Shown one piece after another: positions 2,266 to 12,901 of a stretch of 14,767 nt of DNA (position 1 is its first letter; each line of letters starts with the position of its first letter). Location: the NCBI GenBank assembly GCA_017652715.1, contig JAGCAL010000090.1:1-14767 (forward strand). The letters run 5' to 3'. The position numbers were made by a program, and so were the translations under genes. The notes beneath the pieces are model-generated. The model saw only the letters and a program-made list of their open reading frames with translations. It made no database searches and was not told the DNA's origin. The stretch comes from Candidatus Saccharimonadota bacterium. Its GTDB lineage: Bacteria; Patescibacteriota; Saccharimonadia; Saccharimonadales; Saccharimonadaceae.

Positions 2266-2640
2266 TCAAGACTCATTATTTTTCTCCGTAATCCCTAATT
2301 CCTCGTCTATTAAAACCTTTTCATTAAACGGATCAGAATAAGCATCAATTGCTTTGATTTCTAATTCTAACTTTTCTAAATATTCTTCAACATTTTGAAT
2401 TGTCAGCTTCCCACTTTTCTCAAAATTATATTCTAAATCCTGCCCGTCCTGCTTTTCAATCTCGTCCTCGTCCGGCAAAAATCCCGGGCGCGAACGATCG
2501 AGATAAATATCACCAGAATTATGATAAATCGCTAAAGACACTCCAGTCGTTAAACTCGCAACTAAAACCGAAAGAATTCCGAGTATAACTAGATTACGTC
2601 CCCCACTCGTCATTTTTGAATCCTTCTGTCTTATTTTCAT
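2266..2640 (-). CDS. Small single-pass membrane protein of unknown function
   Basis: I do not recognise this 124-residue protein. It has a basic start (MKIRQKDSK), one clear hydrophobic segment at about residues 17-38 (LVILGILSVLVASLTTGVSLAI), a short linker with PGFLPDEDEIEKQDGQD, and an acidic, probably helical tail (IQNVEEYLEKLELEIKAIDAY). The hydrophobic segment is more like an uncleaved anchor than a signal peptide, which places the acidic tail outside the cell. Its ATG overlaps the upstream stop (ATGA, 4 bp), so it is translationally coupled to the secreted helical protein. The fibro-slime gene follows 34 bp later. The tight layout suggests the three products act together at the cell surface; that is inference. 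Confidence 0.7.
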   Translation of the reverse strand: MKIRQKDSKMTSGGRNLVILGILSVLVASLTTGVSLAIYHNSGDIYLDRSRPGFLPDEDEIEKQDGQDLEYNFEKSGKLTIQNVEEYLEKLELEIKAIDAYSDPFNEKVLIDEELGITEKNNES

Positions 2641-3137
2641 AGCTTCGTCATTACCTCTCTAACTAATTTAACATGTCCTGAAAGTAATGTCCTAATTTGT
2701 AAAACATCTTGCGTCATTATTTTTCGTTTTTGTCGCACAATTACTAACTGTTCATAAAATTTTTCCGGCTCCGCCGTACAATTCATATTAATTAATTCCT
2801 CGAGTACCTGCTGATATTTTACAAAATCGTTCGAAAAAACCGTCCTTGCTTCCGCAAATTTATTTTGATTCTCAACCATTTCCGCTGTCGACAAATTATT
2901 CTCAACTAGTCGCACATTCATCGGTATAATAAATTTTGTCGCGATCGCTTCGTAATAACTTCCGAGATAAACCCTAACCTTCGCATCGAGTTGTTGAACT
3001 TTTTTCAACTTACTTTTTATCGTGCTACAATTTACCGACACTAAGTTTTCCTGCTCTTCCGAAATCGCCATCACATTATACGGAATAAAAAGACCACTTA
3101 CTAAAAACAAAGCCAAGATAATCAATATCTTCTTCAT
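2637..3137 (-). CDS. Secreted helical protein of unknown function, first gene of the surface operon
   Basis: The 166-residue product starts with a good signal peptide (MKKILIILALFLVSGLFIPYNVMA, probable cleavage after residue 24). The mature part is predicted to be mostly alpha-helical, with many K, E, Q and L residues. It has two cysteines (VNCSTIK and MNCTAEP) that could form a disulfide after export. An upstream in-frame ATG at 3146 overlaps the -10 box, so I place the start at 3137, seven nt after TATAAT, as for the other leaderless genes here. No family is recognised. The gene begins 19 bp after the lepA C-terminal part ends, and its last codons overlap the next gene by 4 bp. Open reading, signal peptide and operon position are seen; the role is unknown. 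Confidence 0.72.
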   Translation of the reverse strand: MKKILIILALFLVSGLFIPYNVMAISEEQENLVSVNCSTIKSKLKKVQQLDAKVRVYLGSYYEAIATKFIIPMNVRLVENNLSTAEMVENQNKFAEARTVFSNDFVKYQQVLEELINMNCTAEPEKFYEQLVIVRQKRKIMTQDVLQIRTLLSGHVKLVREVMTKL

Positions 3138-3153
3138 GTAAAACATTATAACA
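3138..3153 (-). promoter_or_regulatory. Leaderless promoter of the secreted-protein operon
   Basis: On the minus strand an extended -10 (TGT-TATAAT, TATAAT at 3150-3145) lies just after the lepA C-terminal stop (3157-3159). The ATG at 3137 follows after 7 nt, which puts the predicted transcription start at or next to the start codon. A clear -35 box is not visible. Confidence 0.6.
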
Positions 3154-3156
3154 CGC

Positions 3157-4383
3157 CTAATCGCGTTTTAACATCACAGTGAAAGCTTCCGACGGAATAT
3201 CAATTTTACCAAAACGTTTCATTCTCGCTTTCCCGCGCTTCTGCTTTTCTAGAAGTTTCGCCTTCCTATCGCGATCACCAGTATGAATTTTTACAGTGAC
3301 ATCCTTTCGGTATGCCCCAATCGTCTCGCGCGCAATAATTCGCGCTCCAATCGCCGCCTGAAGTGCAACTTCCCAGTTTTGACGCGGAATCACTTCCTTT
3401 AACTTTTTCGTCACTTCGCGCCCAATCGCCTCCGCCTCGGATCTATGCGCCATAACCGAAAGCGCATCTATCCGATGTCCGCCTACTAAAAAGTCAACCC
3501 TAACTAAATCTCCTGCCCGATATCCATCAAGTTCATAATTAAACGACGCATATCCGCTCGTAACCGACTTTAGTTGGTCATAAAAATCCGTCAAAAGATT
3601 CGCCATCGGCGCCTCAAAATCAATTACCGACCGGTCTTCAATATACGATAAATTCGTCTGGTGACCACGTTTCTCATTTATTAAATTTAAAACATTTCCA
3701 ATCATTTCCTTCGGCAAAATAATTTCGCCCTTAACCCAAGGTTCCTTAATTTCTCGAACCTCGCTCACGTCCGGCAAATCCGAAGCCGACCTAATCTCAA
3801 TCGTCTCGCCATTATTCATTACAACTTCATAGTTTGTCGACGGATTCGTTACGATTAAATCTAAATTAAACTCGCGTTCAAGTCTTTCACGAATTATATC
3901 CATATGTAGGAGTCCTAAAAATCCAATCCGAAGCCCAAACCCGAGCACTGGCGAATTTTCCGGCTCAAATTTCAAAGCCGAATCCGAAAGCGCTAACTTT
4001 TCTACCGCTTCCTTTAGTTCTTTATATTGATCATTACTTACCGGAAAAAAGCCCGCGTATACGAACGGTAAAACATTTTTATAACCAGGTAGCGCCACCT
4101 TCGCCGGATTTTTGACTAATGTAACAGTATCGCCAACTTTTGCCTCGCGCGTAGTTTTTAGGTTTGTCACGATATAACCAATTTCACCCTGCTTCAAACT
4201 TTCTTTCGGCGTCATCTTCGGAGTTAAAATACCAACCTCTAATGCTATGCCCCTAGTTCCCGCCGCTATCATAAATATTTCGGAGTTTTTCGAGATTTCT
4301 CCATCAAAAACTCGAACATACAGTACAACCCCCCGATAATCGTCAAAATACGAATCAAAAATCAATGCTTTTGTTTTATCCAT
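3157..4383 (-). CDS. lepA: EF4/LepA C-terminal part (domains II, III, V-like and CTD), separated from its G domain
   Basis: The 408 residues match elongation factor 4 from domain II to the C-terminus. KALIFDSYFDDYRGVV opens domain II; LPGYKNVLPFVYAGFFPV, LGFGLRIGFLGLLHMDIIRERLEREF and the region around DLPDVSEVREIKEPW belong to the middle domains; KLLEKQKRGKARMKRFGKIDIP is the LepA-specific tail. EF4 is a ribosome-binding GTPase linked to back-translocation and initiation or assembly under stress. The G domain is encoded separately at 7846-8391, 3.46 kb upstream on the same strand; the two parts total 589 residues, close to a normal LepA (about 600), so little or nothing is lost. I choose the ATG at 4383 because an extended -10 box (TGG-TATAAT, 4398-4390) lies 6 nt before it. 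The upstream ATG at 4404 would be ahead of that transcription start. Whether both parts form a working enzyme is unknown. Confidence 0.88.
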   Translation of the reverse strand: MDKTKALIFDSYFDDYRGVVLYVRVFDGEISKNSEIFMIAAGTRGIALEVGILTPKMTPKESLKQGEIGYIVTNLKTTREAKVGDTVTLVKNPAKVALPGYKNVLPFVYAGFFPVSNDQYKELKEAVEKLALSDSALKFEPENSPVLGFGLRIGFLGLLHMDIIRERLEREFNLDLIVTNPSTNYEVVMNNGETIEIRSASDLPDVSEVREIKEPWVKGEIILPKEMIGNVLNLINEKRGHQTNLSYIEDRSVIDFEAPMANLLTDFYDQLKSVTSGYASFNYELDGYRAGDLVRVDFLVGGHRIDALSVMAHRSEAEAIGREVTKKLKEVIPRQNWEVALQAAIGARIIARETIGAYRKDVTVKIHTGDRDRKAKLLEKQKRGKARMKRFGKIDIPSEAFTVMLKRD

Positions 4384-4390
4384 ATCTATA
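4384..4390 (+). repeat. 7-bp direct repeat ATCTATA, copy 1 (lepA C side)
   Basis: The same 7-mer occurs in the same orientation at 7844-7850, on the lepA N-terminal side of the insert. Here it forms the spacer between the -10 box and the ATG. It looks like a target-site duplication, but 7 bp of AT-rich sequence is weak evidence alone. Confidence 0.4.
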
Positions 4391-4398
4391 TTATACCA
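4384..4398 (-). promoter_or_regulatory. Promoter directly in front of the lepA C-terminal part
   Basis: The minus strand reads TGG-TATAAT (4398-4390), then ATAGAT and ATG at 4383. The same TGTGGTATAATATA string stands before rpsO. The spacing is that of a leaderless start. A -35 box is weak at best (GTTCTT at 17 bp), and an extended -10 can compensate for that. This makes the downstream half of the split gene an independent transcription unit. Confidence 0.65.
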
Positions 4399-4431
4399 CA
4401 CCATGTTTGTAGAAGAACCGCAAGAAAAACC

Positions 4432-4442
4432 AGTCCTTAGAT
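4432..4442 (+). repeat. 11-bp terminal inverted repeat, left copy (AGTCCTTAGAT)
   Basis: This is perfectly complementary in inverted orientation to 7822-7832. It begins one base beyond the FISUMP stop codon, while the partner lies about 47 bp upstream of the FISUMP -10 box, so the pair exactly brackets the promoter and gene inserted in lepA. No transposase or recombinase is encoded inside. Confidence 0.55.
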
Positions 4443-4689
4443 CCTACGCACCAGAAATAAGACAACGGATGCTTCCTCCGCTATTCTTATTGGCCGTACT
4501 CGTACCCGGACCAAGACTAGCAGACAATCCCAAATCATACGCCTCAGAGGATGAATTCGCTGTAGATGACCAATAGTTACCGGCAGCACCACGATTCATT
4601 ACCAAACCATAATCCAAATATCCAGAATAAATAAAATTACTAGGATAGGATCTCATAGCCTTAGAAGCTAAATCTTCAGAAGTACCATA

Positions 4690-4692
4690 CTA
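4690..4692 (-). other. In-frame TAG inside the second FISUMP module
   Basis: Codon 1005 is TAG in the context TTT TAC TAG TAT GGT. No frameshift is involved: the frame stays open for 81 more codons that complete the domain. One base change from a Tyr, Gln, Lys, Glu, Ser, Leu or Trp codon would create it. Confidence 0.85.
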
Positions 4693-5189
4693 GTAAAAAT
4701 AATCGTTTGCATAATTTGCTGGATCCGAACCAACCGTAGCACGAGATAGTTTCCAAAAATCACTTACAGTAACGTTATCTTTTCTTCCACCCACCGGTAG
4801 ATGCCATCCAGACGGACAAAGCGAAGTACTAGTAGTAGACTGATTATTTATAGTGTTAGGATTTAAATCTGCAATAGCTGCGTGCCAAGTGTAGTAGTTA
4901 CCATAGCTGTACATACCAGCGTTAGATGTACTGTTGGTAGCCGAGTTAGTAGTGGGGTTTTGTGGGCGATCCGAAGTAGTAGTTGGGGTATTAATATTGC
5001 TATATCTAGGCATACGATAAGCAGCATCACTAGTACCAATATTTATAGTATCATTACTGCCATCATTACTATATAGGCTATTAGCGGAATAAGTTAAGCT
5101 AAATTTGCTTGCTGTTTCTGGGTCAGCCAGGCCGGAAAAATTACCATAAGTAGCATTAGTACTGTAACCTTGGGCGAGAGTGCCATCTG

Positions 5190-5272
5190 AATTATGAGCA
5201 GCGGTGCTTTCTAGACGCAGATTCTCTATCATCCAGCAATTACCGTCAGCAAGTTTCGCAATAGCATAAGTC
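5190..5272 (-). repeat. Conserved core of FISUMP module 2, duplicated from module 1
   Basis: This segment encodes AIAKLADGNCWMIENLRLE and STAAHNSDG and is clearly similar at DNA level to 6581-6663, which encodes AVAKLADSNCWMIENLRLD and NTAAHNSDG. The two modules therefore arose by internal duplication, and many third-position changes show that the duplication is not recent. Confidence 0.7.
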
Positions 5273-6580
5273 TGGCTATCCCGAATATCGGTTAAGGCAG
5301 AAACCGAAGCGAGATTAGCGGTACCGTTAGTCGGGGCGGTAGTTAAACTATTACAAACGCTAGTAGCGTCCGTCTGCATAGAGCCCGCCGAAGCGACCCA
5401 GATGGCATAAAGCTTTAAGCCATTACTCATATCGGCTGGTGTAGTAATATCCTCCTGTGGACCATAAAACGTGCCGCTATAATCGGGAGCCGTATTCCAT
5501 CCTGCAAACCCGTATCCGCTACGAGAGTAGTTAGAAGCAAGAAGCGTAACATCAGTACTCGCACTAGCGGTTTGTTTCCCCATAGTACCTTCTACTCCAC
5601 TAGCAGCGTTTTTGCTATAACAAATCCTATTAGTTCCACATGCCTCTTCCCACTGCGCATAGAGCGTAATCGTACTGCGAGCCGTCGTTAAATCGGTAAC
5701 ACTTTGCCCGTCCGTATAGCTCGTCCCAGAACCACCCGCTACCGTATTCCAACCAACAAAATCATATCCGCTTCTCGTAAAGGTATTAGAATTCAAGTTT
5801 GTCGCTTCCCCTACTAATATACTCTGATCCCCCATCGTCCCAGTCCCGCCATTAGCATCAAACGATACCGTATACGTCGATGTTGCAAGACAACGGACAG
5901 GAAGACCAATATTTTTATAACCGGTACCATCAATGGTAGCAACACCATAAACACCACCAAAAGCTAAGTCGTATAAGTTACCACTATTATATGCGGTACT
6001 AGACAAATACCAACCATAACTCCCCCTATTAAGAGGCGCTGAATTATAGAAGCGACCAGAATAAATCATGTTATTAGGATAACTCCTAAAAACCTGAGCA
6101 GCAGTCTTGCCGTCTATATTTATTTCTGAATCCTGATAGCTCGAACCATTCGCTGGAGCAAAACCCATAACACCAACACTAAGCCCCCAGAATTCACTAT
6201 TAGCCGCATTAGCCGAACTTCCTCCAATTGGCAAATGCCAACCACTAGGACAAATAGACGTATTAACAACAGATTCGTTACCAGTGTCATAATACGACGT
6301 ATCCGCAATAGCCGCAGCCCAAGTATAGTAATTGCCCAAAGAATAAATGTTAGAATTATTATCCCAAGCGTTCATATCAGCAGTAGGATTCGCTGTATTT
6401 TGGTTATTATAACGTGGAAAACGATAACCTGTACTACTTCCAGTGATAACCGGAGCAACGGTGGAACCATCTGTACTATATAGGCTGTTTGATACAGTGC
6501 TACCAGCACCAAAATTAGCCACCTCCGGATTAGCCAACCCGATAAAACTAGAATTATAACCCTGCGCTAAAGTTCCATCT

Positions 6581-6663
6581 GAGTTATGTGCCGCAGTATT
6601 GTCTAGACGAAGATTTTCAATCATCCAACAGTTACTATCCGCCAATTTAGCAACTGCATAAAC
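6581..6663 (-). repeat. Conserved core of FISUMP module 1
   Basis: This is the counterpart of 5190-5272 within the same gene. Its protein-level conservation (KLAD.NCWMIENLRL, TAAHNSDGTLAQGY) exceeds its DNA conservation, as expected for an old duplication kept under protein-level selection. Confidence 0.7.
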
Positions 6664-7730
6664 GTTAGCATCGCGCGCATCCTTCAAAGCGATCACGTCC
6701 CCGATACTCATAGCATTACAAGCTCCGGTACCAGTCCATTCCTGCAGCGTCATTGGCTGGTTAGTTGCAGTATTTTGTTCTGGTTTCACCCATATAGCAT
6801 AAAATGTAATAGTGTTGGTATTGTTAACTGGAGCAGCTTGAGAAAGAAAAGCAGCATTAGCAGTAACAGTTTCATTAGGACCATAGACCTTGCCAGCCGT
6901 CACTGCGGTTTGTAAATCGGTTTTAAAACTGCTACTTTCTGGATTTAGTTGTACCGTAGACCAACCCGCAAAGCCATAGCCTGCTCTTATATAGTTAGAC
7001 GCTGCAAGATTTACAGTATCATTCTCGACTACATTATGAGTTAAGCTCATTGTCGTATTACCATCATCATTATTGCCGTTATATACAATCGTAAAGTTAG
7101 AACAGTTCACGTTAGGCACTAAGTAATAAGTAATTACGCCATTATCGCTCATGTTATAAGAACCCGGCTCAACATCAGTATCTATCGAGGCTCCATAATA
7201 AATTACGTTTTGATCTCCTCCAGTAGCAGAAGCTGTTGCCTTTGATAATAAAGCCGTAGGAGTATTAGTAAGACCAACAAAGTTACTATTAATATCAGTA
7301 TTAGAATCTAAACTATAACCCCAAGTCCCTAAATTACCACCTAGAATTGTGGCCGGAATAGCCACAGTACCGGCAGAGGGGCTAATTGTACTTGTACTAG
7401 TACTATCACCAGATTTATAAAGCGTAGTATCAGAAAAAGAAGAATTAGTAGCCGAAGTCGCAGCTATAGCTAAATCGTAACCTAAAGGACAAGTAGAAAT
7501 AATCCCTACGGTATCTGTAGCCACATTGGCACTATTACCCGCCGTAGAAACATCAATATTTACGCTACCCGAAGTAGTAATTGAAGTAGTAAAAACATCG
7601 GCGTAAATCGGAGAAGAAACCAAACTAAGAAAAACAATAGGGGTAGCTAAAAACAAAAACCACCTACCACAAAAAAGTAATCTTTTACTGAACATTTTGT
7701 TCATCTTTATTTCCTATTTTAAATGTATGA

Positions 7731-7752
7731 CCTTGTTTTGTTTTTGTATAAC
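7731..7752 (-). promoter_or_regulatory. A-rich 5' leader block shared with the LRR gene
   Basis: Read on the minus strand, GTTATACAAAAAC then AAAACAAGG closely matches the leader of the LRR surface gene (12911-12933), apart from a 2-base and a 1-base indel and one substitution. It starts about 17 nt downstream of the -10 box, so it lies in the transcribed leader. It may be an RNA-level translation or stability element; function is inferred only from the sharing. Confidence 0.45.
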
Positions 7753-7769
7753 TCTAAACTCTAATGGTT

Positions 7770-7797
7770 ATTATACTATCTATTTATAATAATGCAA
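7770..7797 (-). promoter_or_regulatory. Promoter of the FISUMP surface-protein gene
   Basis: On the minus strand, -35 TTGCAT (7797-7792), a 16-bp spacer and -10 TATAAT (7775-7770). The leader to the ATG at 7704 would be about 60 nt, with AGGA about 9 nt before the ATG. Unlike the housekeeping genes nearby, this gene is not leaderless. Confidence 0.6.
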
Positions 7798-7821
7798 GAG
7801 CTTTTTATATAACCCAACACA

Positions 7822-7832
7822 ATCTAAGGACT
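7822..7832 (+). repeat. 11-bp terminal inverted repeat, right copy (ATCTAAGGACT)
   Basis: This is the perfect inverted partner of 4432-4442. It lies 13 bp from the end of the lepA G-domain ORF. Together the copies delimit a segment of 3401 bp. Confidence 0.55.
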
Positions 7833-7843
7833 TGAAAGGAAAA

Positions 7844-7850
7844 ATCTATA
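7844..7850 (+). repeat. 7-bp direct repeat ATCTATA, copy 2 (lepA N side)
   Basis: This matches 4384-4390 in the same orientation. It contains the TAG that ends the lepA N-terminal part (7846-7848). Simply rejoining the two copies would not restore the lepA frame without a small indel, which argues against a clean target-site duplication. Confidence 0.4.
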
Positions 7851-8391
7851 CTTTTCTTGGCGCGGGACCTTTTGAAATAATTTCGTCTAACACCTTATCC
7901 ACATTCTGTCCCGTTTTCCCCGAAACTCCGATGATATCTTCACGTTTACACCCGAGCAAATTCATAATTTGCGCCGCTACACCCTCAACATCCGCCGCCG
8001 GAAGATCGATTTTATTAATTACCGGAATAATATATAAATCTTGTTCCAGCGCTAAATAGACATTAGCAAGAGTTTGTGCCTGAATACCTTGCGTCGCGTC
8101 AACAACTAAGACCGCCGTCTCTACGGCTTGTAACGACCGACTTACCTCATATGAAAAATCCACATGCCCAGGCGTATCGATTAAATTTAAAGTATAACCT
8201 TTCCATTTCATTGTTACAGGCGCAAGCTTAATCGTGATCCCCTTTTCACGCTCCAGCTCCATGGAATCCAAAAGCTGCGCTTTCATTTCGCGCTTCTCCA
8301 CTGTCCCAGTAAGCTCCATCATCCGATCCGCAATCGTCGACTTCCCGTGGTCAATATGAGCAATAATACAAAAATTCCGTATCTTTTCCAT
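7846..8391 (-). CDS. lepA: EF4/LepA N-terminal GTPase domain as a separate ORF
   Basis: The 181 residues are the complete LepA G domain. They show G1 AHIDHGKST (11-19), the switch I region EREKGITIK (47-55), G3 DTPGH (72-76) with the catalytic His, G4 NKID (126-129) and G5 SGK (157-159). The ORF ends GPAPRKV-TAG, exactly at the linker where intact LepA runs into domain II. The rest of LepA is encoded at 3157-4383 on the same strand beyond the FISUMP cassette. The N part has its own TATAAT 7 nt before the ATG. Alone it should still bind GTP, but it lacks all domains that dock on the ribosome. Noncovalent assembly with the C part, or loss of EF4 function, are both possible. It lies 41 bp after pnp. 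Confidence 0.9.
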
Positions 8392-8404
8392 ATCTTATAT
8401 TATA
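8392..8404 (-). promoter_or_regulatory. Leaderless promoter of the lepA G-domain part
   Basis: The minus strand reads TATAAT (8404-8399), ATAAGAT and then ATG at 8391, a 7-nt spacing. There is no TG extension and no evident -35 box. A 10-bp palindrome CTACTAGTAG lies just upstream (8413-8422) and might be a protein site. Confidence 0.5.
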
Positions 8405-8432: not shown

Positions 8433-10610
8433 TTATTTTTCCACCCCAATCATCGACAGACTCAGTTTCCCATTGTCAATCGCAACCAGCCTTACCTTTA
8501 CTTTCTCTCCCATGTGCAAAACCTCGGTTACAGACTTCAAACGTTTCCCTTCGCGAATCTGCGAAATATGAAGCATTCCATCTACTCCAGGCAAAATATT
8601 CACAAACGCCCCAAAATCCTTAATCGATACGACCGTCCCCTCATAAATCTTTCCAACTTCCGGCTCCTCAGTCAGCGACTTTACCCAATCTAACGCCTTC
8701 TGAATCTTCTCTGGATCAGTCCCCGAAATCGTCACAAGTCCAGAATCCTCAATATCCACCTCCGCGCCAGTCTCGCTCGTAATCTTATTAATCATTTCGC
8801 CACCCTTACCAATCACCGCACCAATCTTATCCGGATTAATCATTAGTTTCTCTATTTTTGGCGCATAAGAAGAAATCTCAGCCCTCGGCCTATCAATTAC
8901 CTCCATAATATGCTTTAGAATAAACATTCGTCCTTCATGAGACTGTTTTAAAGCCTTCTCCATAATCTCTACCGGAAGCCCATGCACCTTCATATCCATT
9001 TGAAGCGCGGTTACACCTTCCGAAGTCCCAGTCACCTTAAAATCCATATCGCCCGCAAAATCTTCAGCATCCATAAGATCCGTCAAAACGTACGCCTTAT
9101 CAATATCTGACGCCTTAATCTCTGCACCTTTTTCAACATCAACCATAAGACCCATCGCTACCCCCGAGACCGGTCTTTTAATCGGTACACCCGCATCCAT
9201 TAACGCCATACACGACGAACAAGTCGCCGCCATCGAAGTAGAACCATTCTGCGACATAATCTCAGTCACAGAACGAATCGCATAAGGGAAGTCCTCTTCG
9301 GATGGCAATACCGGAAGTAGCGCCCGCTCAGCTAAATATCCGTGCCCAATCTCACGTCGTCCTGGCGACCCAATTCGTCCCGGCTCGCCTACTGTATACG
9401 AAGGCGCATTGTAATGATGCATATAACGACGCTTCCCGTCCGTCACTTCCATCGTATCTACCTCTTGCGAATAAGACAAAGGTGCAAGCGTTACAATGTT
9501 CATCGCCTGTGTTACTCCGCGCGTAAAGAGCGACGAACCATGCGTCCTCGGCAAAATCCCAACCTGTGACGAAAGCGGCCTAACCTCATCCAACTTTCGC
9601 CCATCCGGACGCACCCCTTCCTCGACAATCCCTCGACGTACCTCTTTAAATACCGCCATCTCAAACGCCTGATCATAAACATCCCTTAAATTCTCATCAT
9701 ACCATTCAACTTTCTCATTGTCGGTCTCCCCCTGTCCATGAGATAAAGCAAACTCATCATGCATTGCATATTTTATATCATCTAAAATATGCGCTCTTTC
9801 CATCACGTTTCCACGTACATTCGAACCAAACTTACCAGAAGTCCAATCCGCCACTTCCTTCAAAATTGCTTCGTCGGGAAGAACTAATTCATATTCTTGT
9901 TCCGGCGCGTCTACTTGTTTAGCTAACTCTCTCTGTAAATCTAAGACAGGCTTTACGTTATCAACCGCCCATTTCATCGCATCAATAATCGTCTCCTCCG
10001 AAACCTCTTTCATACCGGCTTCTACCATCATCACTTTACCATCTTTACAGGCCACGACGAGATCCATAGGAGAAGCGTCTCGCTCTTCTGACGACAAAAA
10101 GCCCTTAAATTTACCATCAATCTGCCCAATCCTAATTCCAGCGATCGGCCCATCAAACGGCACACCGGCGTTCATTAAAGCAGAAGAAGCCGCAATCATC
10201 GCTACACAATCTGGGCGAAAACTCGGATCCATCGATAGAACCGTACAAACTACCTGAATCTCTTGACGATAACCCTTAGGGAACAACGGCCGAATCGGTC
10301 GATCTATGAGCCGCCCAACGAGTACCGCCTCATCCGCCGGCTTTCCTTCTCTTTTAATAAATCGCGAACCTGAAATTTTTCCCGCCGCATACCATTTCTC
10401 TTCATAATCAATCGATAGCGGGAAGAAATCCTGCACAACCGGCTTCGTCCCAACAACTACTGACCCTAGAACTACAGTATCGCCATATTGTACCAAAACC
10501 GACGAAGTAGACCTGAATCCTACTCTGTTTACCTCTAAGGACAACTCTCGCCCTAACCACTCCGTAGTCAACCTTACGGTCTTCTTACCATTAGGGTTTA
10601 TAATTTCCAT
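8433..10610 (-). CDS. pnp: Polyribonucleotide nucleotidyltransferase (PNPase)
   Basis: The 725-residue protein has full PNPase architecture: RNase PH-like domain 1 (about 14-150), a helical linker, RNase PH-like domain 2 (about 337-540; VRPDGRKLDEVRPL, RTHGSSLFTRG), a KH domain with VIGKGGEMI (about 593-601) and a C-terminal S1 domain (about 650-720; GKIYEGTVVSIKDFGAFV). The active-site block DLMDAEDFAGDMDFKVTGTSEG is intact. It degrades RNA 3' to 5' using phosphate, as a trimer in the cytoplasm. The start at 10610 is preceded by AAAGGA at a good Shine-Dalgarno distance. A leader of about 200 nt with a large hairpin precedes it. In many bacteria rpsO directly precedes pnp; here a rightward gene lies between them. 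lepA follows it on the same strand. Confidence 0.97.
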   Translation of the reverse strand: MEIINPNGKKTVRLTTEWLGRELSLEVNRVGFRSTSSVLVQYGDTVVLGSVVVGTKPVVQDFFPLSIDYEEKWYAAGKISGSRFIKREGKPADEAVLVGRLIDRPIRPLFPKGYRQEIQVVCTVLSMDPSFRPDCVAMIAASSALMNAGVPFDGPIAGIRIGQIDGKFKGFLSSEERDASPMDLVVACKDGKVMMVEAGMKEVSEETIIDAMKWAVDNVKPVLDLQRELAKQVDAPEQEYELVLPDEAILKEVADWTSGKFGSNVRGNVMERAHILDDIKYAMHDEFALSHGQGETDNEKVEWYDENLRDVYDQAFEMAVFKEVRRGIVEEGVRPDGRKLDEVRPLSSQVGILPRTHGSSLFTRGVTQAMNIVTLAPLSYSQEVDTMEVTDGKRRYMHHYNAPSYTVGEPGRIGSPGRREIGHGYLAERALLPVLPSEEDFPYAIRSVTEIMSQNGSTSMAATCSSCMALMDAGVPIKRPVSGVAMGLMVDVEKGAEIKASDIDKAYVLTDLMDAEDFAGDMDFKVTGTSEGVTALQMDMKVHGLPVEIMEKALKQSHEGRMFILKHIMEVIDRPRAEISSYAPKIEKLMINPDKIGAVIGKGGEMINKITSETGAEVDIEDSGLVTISGTDPEKIQKALDWVKSLTEEPEVGKIYEGTVVSIKDFGAFVNILPGVDGMLHISQIREGKRLKSVTEVLHMGEKVKVRLVAIDNGKLSLSMIGVEK

Positions 10611-11851: not shown

Positions 11852-12901
11852 CTATTTAAAGTCCACCTTGCGAGAAGCTCTTTGGTAACCCTTCGTAAGA
11901 AGCGTACCTAGTATAATCGCGCCCATAACTGGTAAACCGACGAGAATTGCCGTAATAAACTCGCTACCATTCGTATTTCCACCAGTATTCGGCACCTTCA
12001 TATCATCTTCCTCTTCTTCAGCATCAAATAGTTTAAGCTTGTACGAGAAGTACTTTTCCTCTTTTTCCTCATCTCCCTCTTTGCTTAAACCTACAACCTG
12101 CACAAACTCACCAGTTTTCTTCTTATCTTTCACCGTCAAAGTCATGTTATCTTTATCATAAGTATAATAATCCGTATCTTTTATCGAAAACGTCATCGTC
12201 TTAAATACCCCTTCCCCATTTTCGTGCTCAGTGCCATCCTTCATATATTTCAAAGAACTCAAATTAAACACATACCCATCTTTTGTTTCTGTCGGAGGAA
12301 CAATACCAGCATACACTAAAATATTGTCCACCAGTAAATTCTCTAATCGAGAGTTACGAGCTACGTTGATAAAAGTAAGTTTATTCGAAAAGGCCCTAAG
12401 CGACAACAGACTATCGTTATTAGAAACATCGAGTACAGCTAGTTCGTTATGAGAAACATCCAAGTCCTCTAAAACGCCCTCCCTAGGCAAAGTAACTGAG
12501 GTTAATTTATTATTAGATACATCAAGCTTCTTTAAGGAGTTATTTAATGAAAAATCTATGCTAGAAATATTGTTGTCAGCAAGATCCAGCTCTACCAAAT
12601 TTGTCAGATTAACAACTCCTCGAAAATTCGTTATTTTCTTATCAGGACATTCTATCTTTGTCAATTTGTCCGCATATTTCATAGCGCTATTAATATCACT
12701 AACCGGCTTAGGAGCCTCAGCTATTGATGCAATGTCGTCATCACTATTAACGGCAGCTATTATACACTGCTGCGCATTCCAGTCGAAGTAACTCGACGCC
12801 CCTTCCGCATGAGTATTCCCTACCGCCACGCTAGACGCAAGCGCTAGCGACAAAAAGCCGACCGAAGCGACCTTACACACTTTACTTTTTTGTATTAACA
12901 T
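11852..12901 (-). CDS. Internalin-like leucine-rich-repeat surface protein with C-terminal VPNTG sorting-type signal
   Basis: The 349-residue protein begins with a signal peptide (residues 1-32, cleavage after THA). Irregular leucine-rich repeats lie at about 83-200 (NLTNLVELDLADNNISSI, SLKKLDVSNNKLTSV, VLEDLDVSHNELAVLDVSNN). A region of unknown fold and an acidic stretch (DAEEEEDDMKVP) follow. The end has VPNTGG at about 303-308, a hydrophobic segment at about 318-337 and a basic tail (RASRKVDFK). This order (motif, membrane segment, positive tail) is that of sortase substrates, with VPNTG resembling LPXTG; no sortase is in the window. I infer a cell-surface binding protein, possibly used on the host bacterium. 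It has a leader with AAGG about 9 nt before the ATG. Domains are clear; the ligand is unknown. Confidence 0.85.
   Translation of the reverse strand: MLIQKSKVCKVASVGFLSLALASSVAVGNTHAEGASSYFDWNAQQCIIAAVNSDDDIASIAEAPKPVSDINSAMKYADKLTKIECPDKKITNFRGVVNLTNLVELDLADNNISSIDFSLNNSLKKLDVSNNKLTSVTLPREGVLEDLDVSHNELAVLDVSNNDSLLSLRAFSNKLTFINVARNSRLENLLVDNILVYAGIVPPTETKDGYVFNLSSLKYMKDGTEHENGEGVFKTMTFSIKDTDYYTYDKDNMTLTVKDKKKTGEFVQVVGLSKEGDEEKEEKYFSYKLKLFDAEEEEDDMKVPNTGGNTNGSEFITAILVGLPVMGAIILGTLLTKGYQRASRKVDFK

Follow-up and report, generated by a model that had tools for sequence, protein, structure and literature searches.

The window analyzed here, i.e., the whole stretch of 14,767 nt, is an entire contig (JAGCAL010000090.1, assembly GCA_017652715.1) of a 640-kb Candidatus Saccharimonadota genome that is 79% complete and divided into 100 contigs. 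It harbors lepA, the gene for the translational GTPase LepA/EF4, which was found to be present as two genes. The window's LepA is not encoded as one continuous chain: the N-terminal part (N half) ends with a stop codon at 7846-7848, and 3.46 kb follow before the C-terminal part (C half). The features of the locus are as follows:

7846..8391, minus strand: lepA N half (G domain), 181 codons, with the C-terminal end GPAPRKV followed by the stop; covers positions 2-183 of the TIGR01393 profile
3157..4383, minus strand: lepA C half (domains II, III, and V and the LepA C-terminal domain, CTD), 408 codons from the ATG at 4383, starting with MDKTKALIFDS; covers profile positions 188-594
8399..8404, minus strand: TATAAT box of the N half, 7 nt before its start; predicted leaderless promoter
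4390..4395, minus strand: TATAAT box of the C half, 6 nt before its start; predicted leaderless promoter
4384..7845, no strand: spacer between the halves, filled in this genome by a surface-protein gene
4690..7704, minus strand: FISUMP/List_Bact_rpt surface-protein gene, matching TIGR02145 and PF09479 above their cut-offs and ending at an in-frame TAG
4444..4656, minus strand: tail open reading frame (ORF) in the FISUMP frame past the TAG, 70 codons from the ATG at 4656

An initial annotation, made from the DNA letters, had described lepA as two same-strand parts at 7846-8391 and 3157-4383, and the open frames together with matches to TIGR01393 and Pfam confirmed this. The G domain was assigned to the N half, and GTP_EFTU_D2, EFG_C, and LepA_C to the C half, whose longest ORF opens at 4404, upstream of the ATG at 4383. 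The C half alone scored 542.8 bits against TIGR01393 (cut-off 533.9); the N half scored 294.7, under the cut-off because it makes up one third of LepA. The LepA-specific C-terminal domain PF06421 was detected with 140.1 bits (cut-off 29.7). Alignment with Escherichia coli LepA (3cb4) placed the N half at residues 1-183 and the C half at 192-592, and therefore the linker loop alone is missing between them. This is in agreement with the earlier claim of a break at the joint between the G domain and domain II (G/II) at which nothing essential was lost. The split form keeps the five G motifs, domains II, III, and V, and LepA_C of LepA/EF4 (TIGR01393), and differs from it in consisting of two polypeptides cut in the G/II loop, whereas the usual form is one chain. 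The initial annotation had also allowed for a complete lepA elsewhere; none was found besides the split one in the 100 contigs of this genome (79% complete). The FISUMP gene that had been placed between the halves was verified by TIGR02145 and PF09479, but it is itself broken within its last domain by the in-frame TAG at 4690-4692.

Comparison with congeners revealed that the arrangement is shared. The gene was matched in 141 of 147 genomes, and the locus was read in 140 of these (all but G006): 115 were unsplit, 24 were split at the G/II joint, and one (G011) was left unassigned owing to a run of N. Intact and split lepA thus exist side by side within the genus, a comparison that had been proposed earlier, while the break itself had been treated as a one-off. 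Both halves were seen in 22 of the 24 split congeners (exceptions G082 and G090). Where the halves share a contig and a strand, the gap ranged from 75 nt (G080) to 8.6 kb (G093); in G030 the C half is inverted so that the halves lie on opposite strands, and in G120 they are on different contigs. Minimal splits without an insert were found in G080 (75 nt) and at locus L249 (102 nt), each with stops and a TATAAT. FISUMP-like surface genes occupy the gap in G000, G054, G072, and G093, and a histidine phosphatase (one by Pfam, the rest by likeness) occupies it in seven genomes and, beside another gene, in G046. Other gaps contain an aquaporin (G018), a Y-family polymerase (G023), a TM2 protein (G044), or further genes; the gap gene of G038 appears HD-like by our own reading, its first 90 residues having no Pfam match. 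An insertion element targeting lepA was considered and is not supported, as the gap genes differ between genomes and are unrelated. No integrase or transposase was noticed in the starts of the insert ORFs, with Pfam run on the first 90 residues of seven inserts. The 80 source records that carry a name are mostly from ruminant gut. The lepA of Candidatus Nanosyncoccus alces is unsplit, with a 27-residue linker.

Three further observations concern copy number and form. In G036, the lepA at the usual locus is unsplit, and a free extra C half with its own TATAAT lies near FISUMP-like sequence on another contig (L072 and L073). G046 carries two N halves on two contigs (L076 and L077), possibly strain variants or a duplication. 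At the joint between domains II and III (II/III), L250 and L254, which come from two split species of this genus, carry an additional in-frame insert of 17 residues.

The start signals of the halves were evaluated for 24 C-half starts, comprising those of 23 split genomes and of the extra C half of G036. A TATAAT with at most one mismatch was present upstream of 22 of the 24, at a distance of 6-7 nt in 20 of them, and was absent from the corresponding place in all 116 unsplit genes (G011 included). The box of G090 has one mismatch and lies 11 nt away; the two starts without a box are those of G129, with AAAGGAG upstream, and of G106, with nothing. The same box (one mismatch at most) precedes the lepA start in 115 of the 140 loci, and in the window the TATAAT reported 6-7 nt before each half was located at 7 nt (N) and 6 nt (C). 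Across the fetched loci, TATAAT-N6-ATG occurred 201 times as compared with mostly 10-30 at other distances, about ten times the background, in a tally that is not genome-wide since these loci repeat the same few genes. The halves are likely transcribed from promoters of their own, judging from these motifs.

The dN/dS of each half, a measure that had been suggested earlier, was about 0.06-0.07 in split lineages, as in intact relatives: the medians were 0.074 (split) vs. 0.072 (intact) for the N half and 0.056 vs. 0.064 for the C half, with dS > 1 in nearly all usable split pairs. At the 298 columns invariant across 114 intact rows, 8 of 6,854 cells were changed in the split rows, a rate of 0.12% as compared with 0.14% in held-out intact rows. 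The five G motifs, all of which had been noted in the window's N half, and the catalytic-site histidine (DTPGH) were kept in 23/23 N halves of split genomes. The dN/dS values and the unchanged invariant columns suggest that the halves are kept in working order. The hallmarks of a pseudogene, relaxed selection and loss of conserved residues, were not observed in the split halves. As expected of gene fission, both parts are open and jointly span lepA, sister species carry an intact orthologue, and both parts are under purifying selection.

Genes around lepA recur in relatives, and two of them served as synteny anchors:

8433..10610, minus strand: pnp, the upstream neighbour of lepA in this clade
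2637..3146, minus strand: first downstream neighbour of lepA, followed by 2266-2640 and 1104-2231

The three genes downstream of the window's lepA are common to its relatives, and pnp is near the lepA locus in split and unsplit forms alike. Of the 24 split genomes, 20 had pnp and 16 had the first downstream neighbour within the fetched stretch. Apart from this neighbourhood, a leucine-rich repeat protein at 11852-12901 (minus strand) resembles sortase substrates in its C-terminal end, which combines a VPNTG-like motif with a hydrophobic stretch and basic residues.

The aligned halves of the 115 unsplit congeners were separated by 9 to 276 nt, in frame in every case. The 52 spacers of 61-299 nt, two of which contain stops (G080 and G106), had a median GC of 0.60, and 41 of them folded better than mononucleotide shuffles (z < -2). 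Matches elsewhere in the fetched loci were obtained for 41/52 spacers at E <= 0.01 and for 34/52 at E <= 1e-5. A single linker used as query had copies outside lepA in four of six genomes (two in G101, three in G048, two in G026, and one in G034) and none in G128 or G000. GC-rich palindromic repeats of ~70 bp were thus observed in frame in LepA linkers and recurring elsewhere in the genomes. An Rfam scan at the gathering threshold (six sources) returned four tRNAs and no known RNA family in the linkers. The spacers look like in-frame palindromic repeats of the Rickettsia type. The Rickettsia palindromic elements also lie in frame inside protein genes (PMC10969869); the likeness is one of form, and here the repeats occupy a single LepA loop, which is also the site of the splits. 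The palindromic repeats may cause the splits. For an intact relative whose linker spans 92 residues, the AlphaFold2 model had a mean pLDDT of 44 and was not used.

Beyond the genus, 199 genomes of the family were searched and 46 loci were read, namely, 26 chosen for partial or broken matches and 20 unsplit ones for comparison. Among these 46, the G/II split was found in four, all belonging to genus g10, and at least 22 genomes were split at the next joint, II/III (profile ~277/280), so that the break is confined neither to one genome nor to one joint. A TATAAT form precedes 10/23 C parts of the II/III splits. G281 has the appearance of an II/III split at a point where its contig ends. Genus g10 takes a different route to the second start: in G236, no gene is inserted, and a single TAA is followed by AAGGAGG inside the linker codons directly before a second ATG. 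G425, a candidate on account of an internal TAA, proved unsplit, as the stop precedes its start. In a phylum-wide sample, lepA was matched in 128 of 136 genomes and was unsplit in most. In the distant family f15, both members carry the G/II split and the halves are widely separated, lying 75 kb apart on opposite strands in G357 and on different contigs in G338. No lepA was matched at the cut-offs used in three single-contig f12 genomes (G335, G355, and G452).

A protein search with the N half gave 4,985 matches at E <= 1e-60 among 7,999 candidates scored; it was limited to lengths of ~100-317 aa, and full-length LepA therefore fell outside it. Among the matches listed, 90 of 120 were stand-alone G domains of 178-187 aa, and all 25 C-terminal ends inspected lay at or a few residues from GPxPR/K; some of the remaining listed matches may be contig-end fragments. 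The few source names shown were mostly 'GTP-binding protein', with one 'GTP-binding protein LepA'. Owing to this naming, LepA may be miscounted when small genomes are surveyed.

The paralogous GTPase TypA/BipA was used as a control. In several genomes of the genus, its linker carries in-frame inserts close to profile position 240. No confirmed split was found among the matches listed for 139 matched genomes, a result that does not extend to G028, G121, G008, and G135, whose matches are partial or broken. The two candidate breaks were discarded, that of G142 being a run of N and that of G129 a contig end. Splitting is therefore not general to these GTPases.

On the LepA tree of the genus (140 rows, 24 split), 12 changes of state were required, and six of them were forced by well-supported branches; split G075 adjoins intact G016 and split G129 adjoins intact G119. 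The PNPase tree (70 rows, 18 split, G106 dropped) gave 11 changes, three of them forced. On a 58-row tree of chosen family rows, the II/III state required seven changes and the G/II state six. A single clade of 21 split rows (G082, G090, and G106 left out) was rejected (p 5.9e-5). The cuts in lepA probably arose several times.

lepA of the window is two separate genes, likely with their own promoters, and from conservation and promoter motifs it appears probable that their products, as predicted here, reassemble non-covalently into a working LepA on the ribosome. This accords with the separately expressed split GTPase proposed in the initial annotation, which gains support from the conservation and co-retention of the halves and their own promoter boxes. 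The G/II loop would tolerate extra sequence, and a stop in the loop together with a new start would give two genes. Given how common leaderless-type starts are in these loci, a TATAAT placed ~6 nt upstream of an ATG would be enough for the new start. After the split, the gap would act as ordinary intergenic space in which unrelated genes could settle, and the two proteins may reassemble via the native interface of the G domain with the rest on the ribosome. E. coli LepA needs both the active-site histidine and the CTD for function (PMC4245954); reassembly is proposed on this basis and on that of the unchanged constraint in both halves and their co-retention. More tentatively, saccharibacterial LepA could be modular and able to do without a covalent connection of the G domain to its other domains, with a gene that toggles between fused and split at two joints and a free G domain that acts in trans as a subunit of its own, perhaps under separate control. 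Such fission would cost almost nothing under leaderless transcription, because a TATAAT and an ATG in the linker suffice.

Several observations weigh against a functional two-gene LepA of repeated origin. G082 and G090 show one half each, within ~300 nt or less of a contig end on the gap side, and G106, which was counted as split, has two stops and no promoter box and may be a decaying lepA. Most dS values were saturated, so that the medians derive from 18 (N half) and 12 (C half) of 231 split pairs, along with 373 and 70 of 6,441 intact pairs. At the cut-offs used, lepA was not matched in the near-complete genomes G031, G114, G176, and G211, and the gene may therefore be dispensable in the group. 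One clade of 18 pnp-linked split rows was not rejected (p 0.077), and some of the changes on the trees may be re-fusions, which makes the count of independent fissions uncertain. The PNPase tree pairs split G080 with intact G073, unlike the LepA tree, and lepA may therefore have been exchanged between species by recombination.

The halves might no longer cooperate, each having a role of its own, the G domain as an independent small GTPase and the C part as a distinct protein that binds the ribosome. Halves that lie far apart or on different contigs, the extra C half beside the unsplit lepA of G036, and the plain 'GTP-binding protein' of most source names shown would fit this explanation. It is considered unlikely, as new roles should shift the constraint, whereas split and intact lineages are equally constrained, column by column; furthermore, a lone half was seen only in the two of 24 split genomes in which it lies near a contig end, and the dual requirement for histidine and CTD in E. 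coli (PMC4245954) argues against independent halves. Decay of a recently broken gene, with frames open by chance, is consistent with the premature stop in the FISUMP gap gene, the relatives without a lepA match, and the state of G106. The recent inactivation envisaged in the initial annotation is, however, contradicted by strong purifying selection on both halves between split-carrying species, nearly all usable pairs being at dS > 1, by the lack of excess changes at invariant columns, and by the new promoter boxes in 22/24 starts, which leaves decay very unlikely.

One protein's halves encoded at two loci are also a known setting for trans-splicing and split inteins, and the halves could be rejoined as RNA or protein. 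No room is left for an intein, since a stop follows the N halves' last aligned LepA residue after 0-5 codons and the C-half starts with the best support precede ALIFDS by 3-6 codons; each half also has its own start and stop, and rejoining is regarded as highly improbable. An assembly or binning artefact could be suspected, given that the genome is in 100 contigs, of which the window is one, and that the breaks in G011, G379, and the TypA of G142 are runs of N. It would have to account for an identical joint in many assemblies from different projects, and for the usual neighbours around many splits and long contigs (e.g., G155, 578 kb), and it is considered extremely improbable.

Nanoarchaeum is a host-dependent organism with a small genome and split protein genes. 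Reduced-genome microbes of this kind are similar in having protein genes in pieces (PMC3491384); the organisms and genes are different, and in the present case intact and split forms of lepA exist within one genus, so that the steps of fission can be compared. In the mitochondrial cox2, an insertion likewise splits one gene into two complementary genes, going by the title of the study (PMC5374615); that is an animal mitochondrial gene, whereas lepA encodes a bacterial ribosome GTPase split at two joints in different lineages. A split lepA was not reported in the titles and abstract openings listed for split lepA, gene fission, and split GTPases, in short lists (at most 20 of 310 entries) and with a coverage that mostly excludes subscription journals. 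The available parts of PMC1780047 and PMC7750005 contain nothing on splits, 'lepa' in the latter being the name LePage.

In many gut and rumen Saccharibacteria, which are tiny and have reduced genomes, the two conserved lepA pieces likely work as a two-piece enzyme. In translational GTPases, GTP hydrolysis is believed to be coupled to the movement of other domains via one chain. If LepA works in two pieces, this coupling must cross a non-covalent interface, which is directly testable. Fused, linker-expanded, stop-only, adjacent-split, and dispersed forms of lepA are all found in one phylum, mostly in one family, making the successive steps of fission comparable. If the two-piece LepA holds true, the phylum would be a natural laboratory for proteins becoming complexes.

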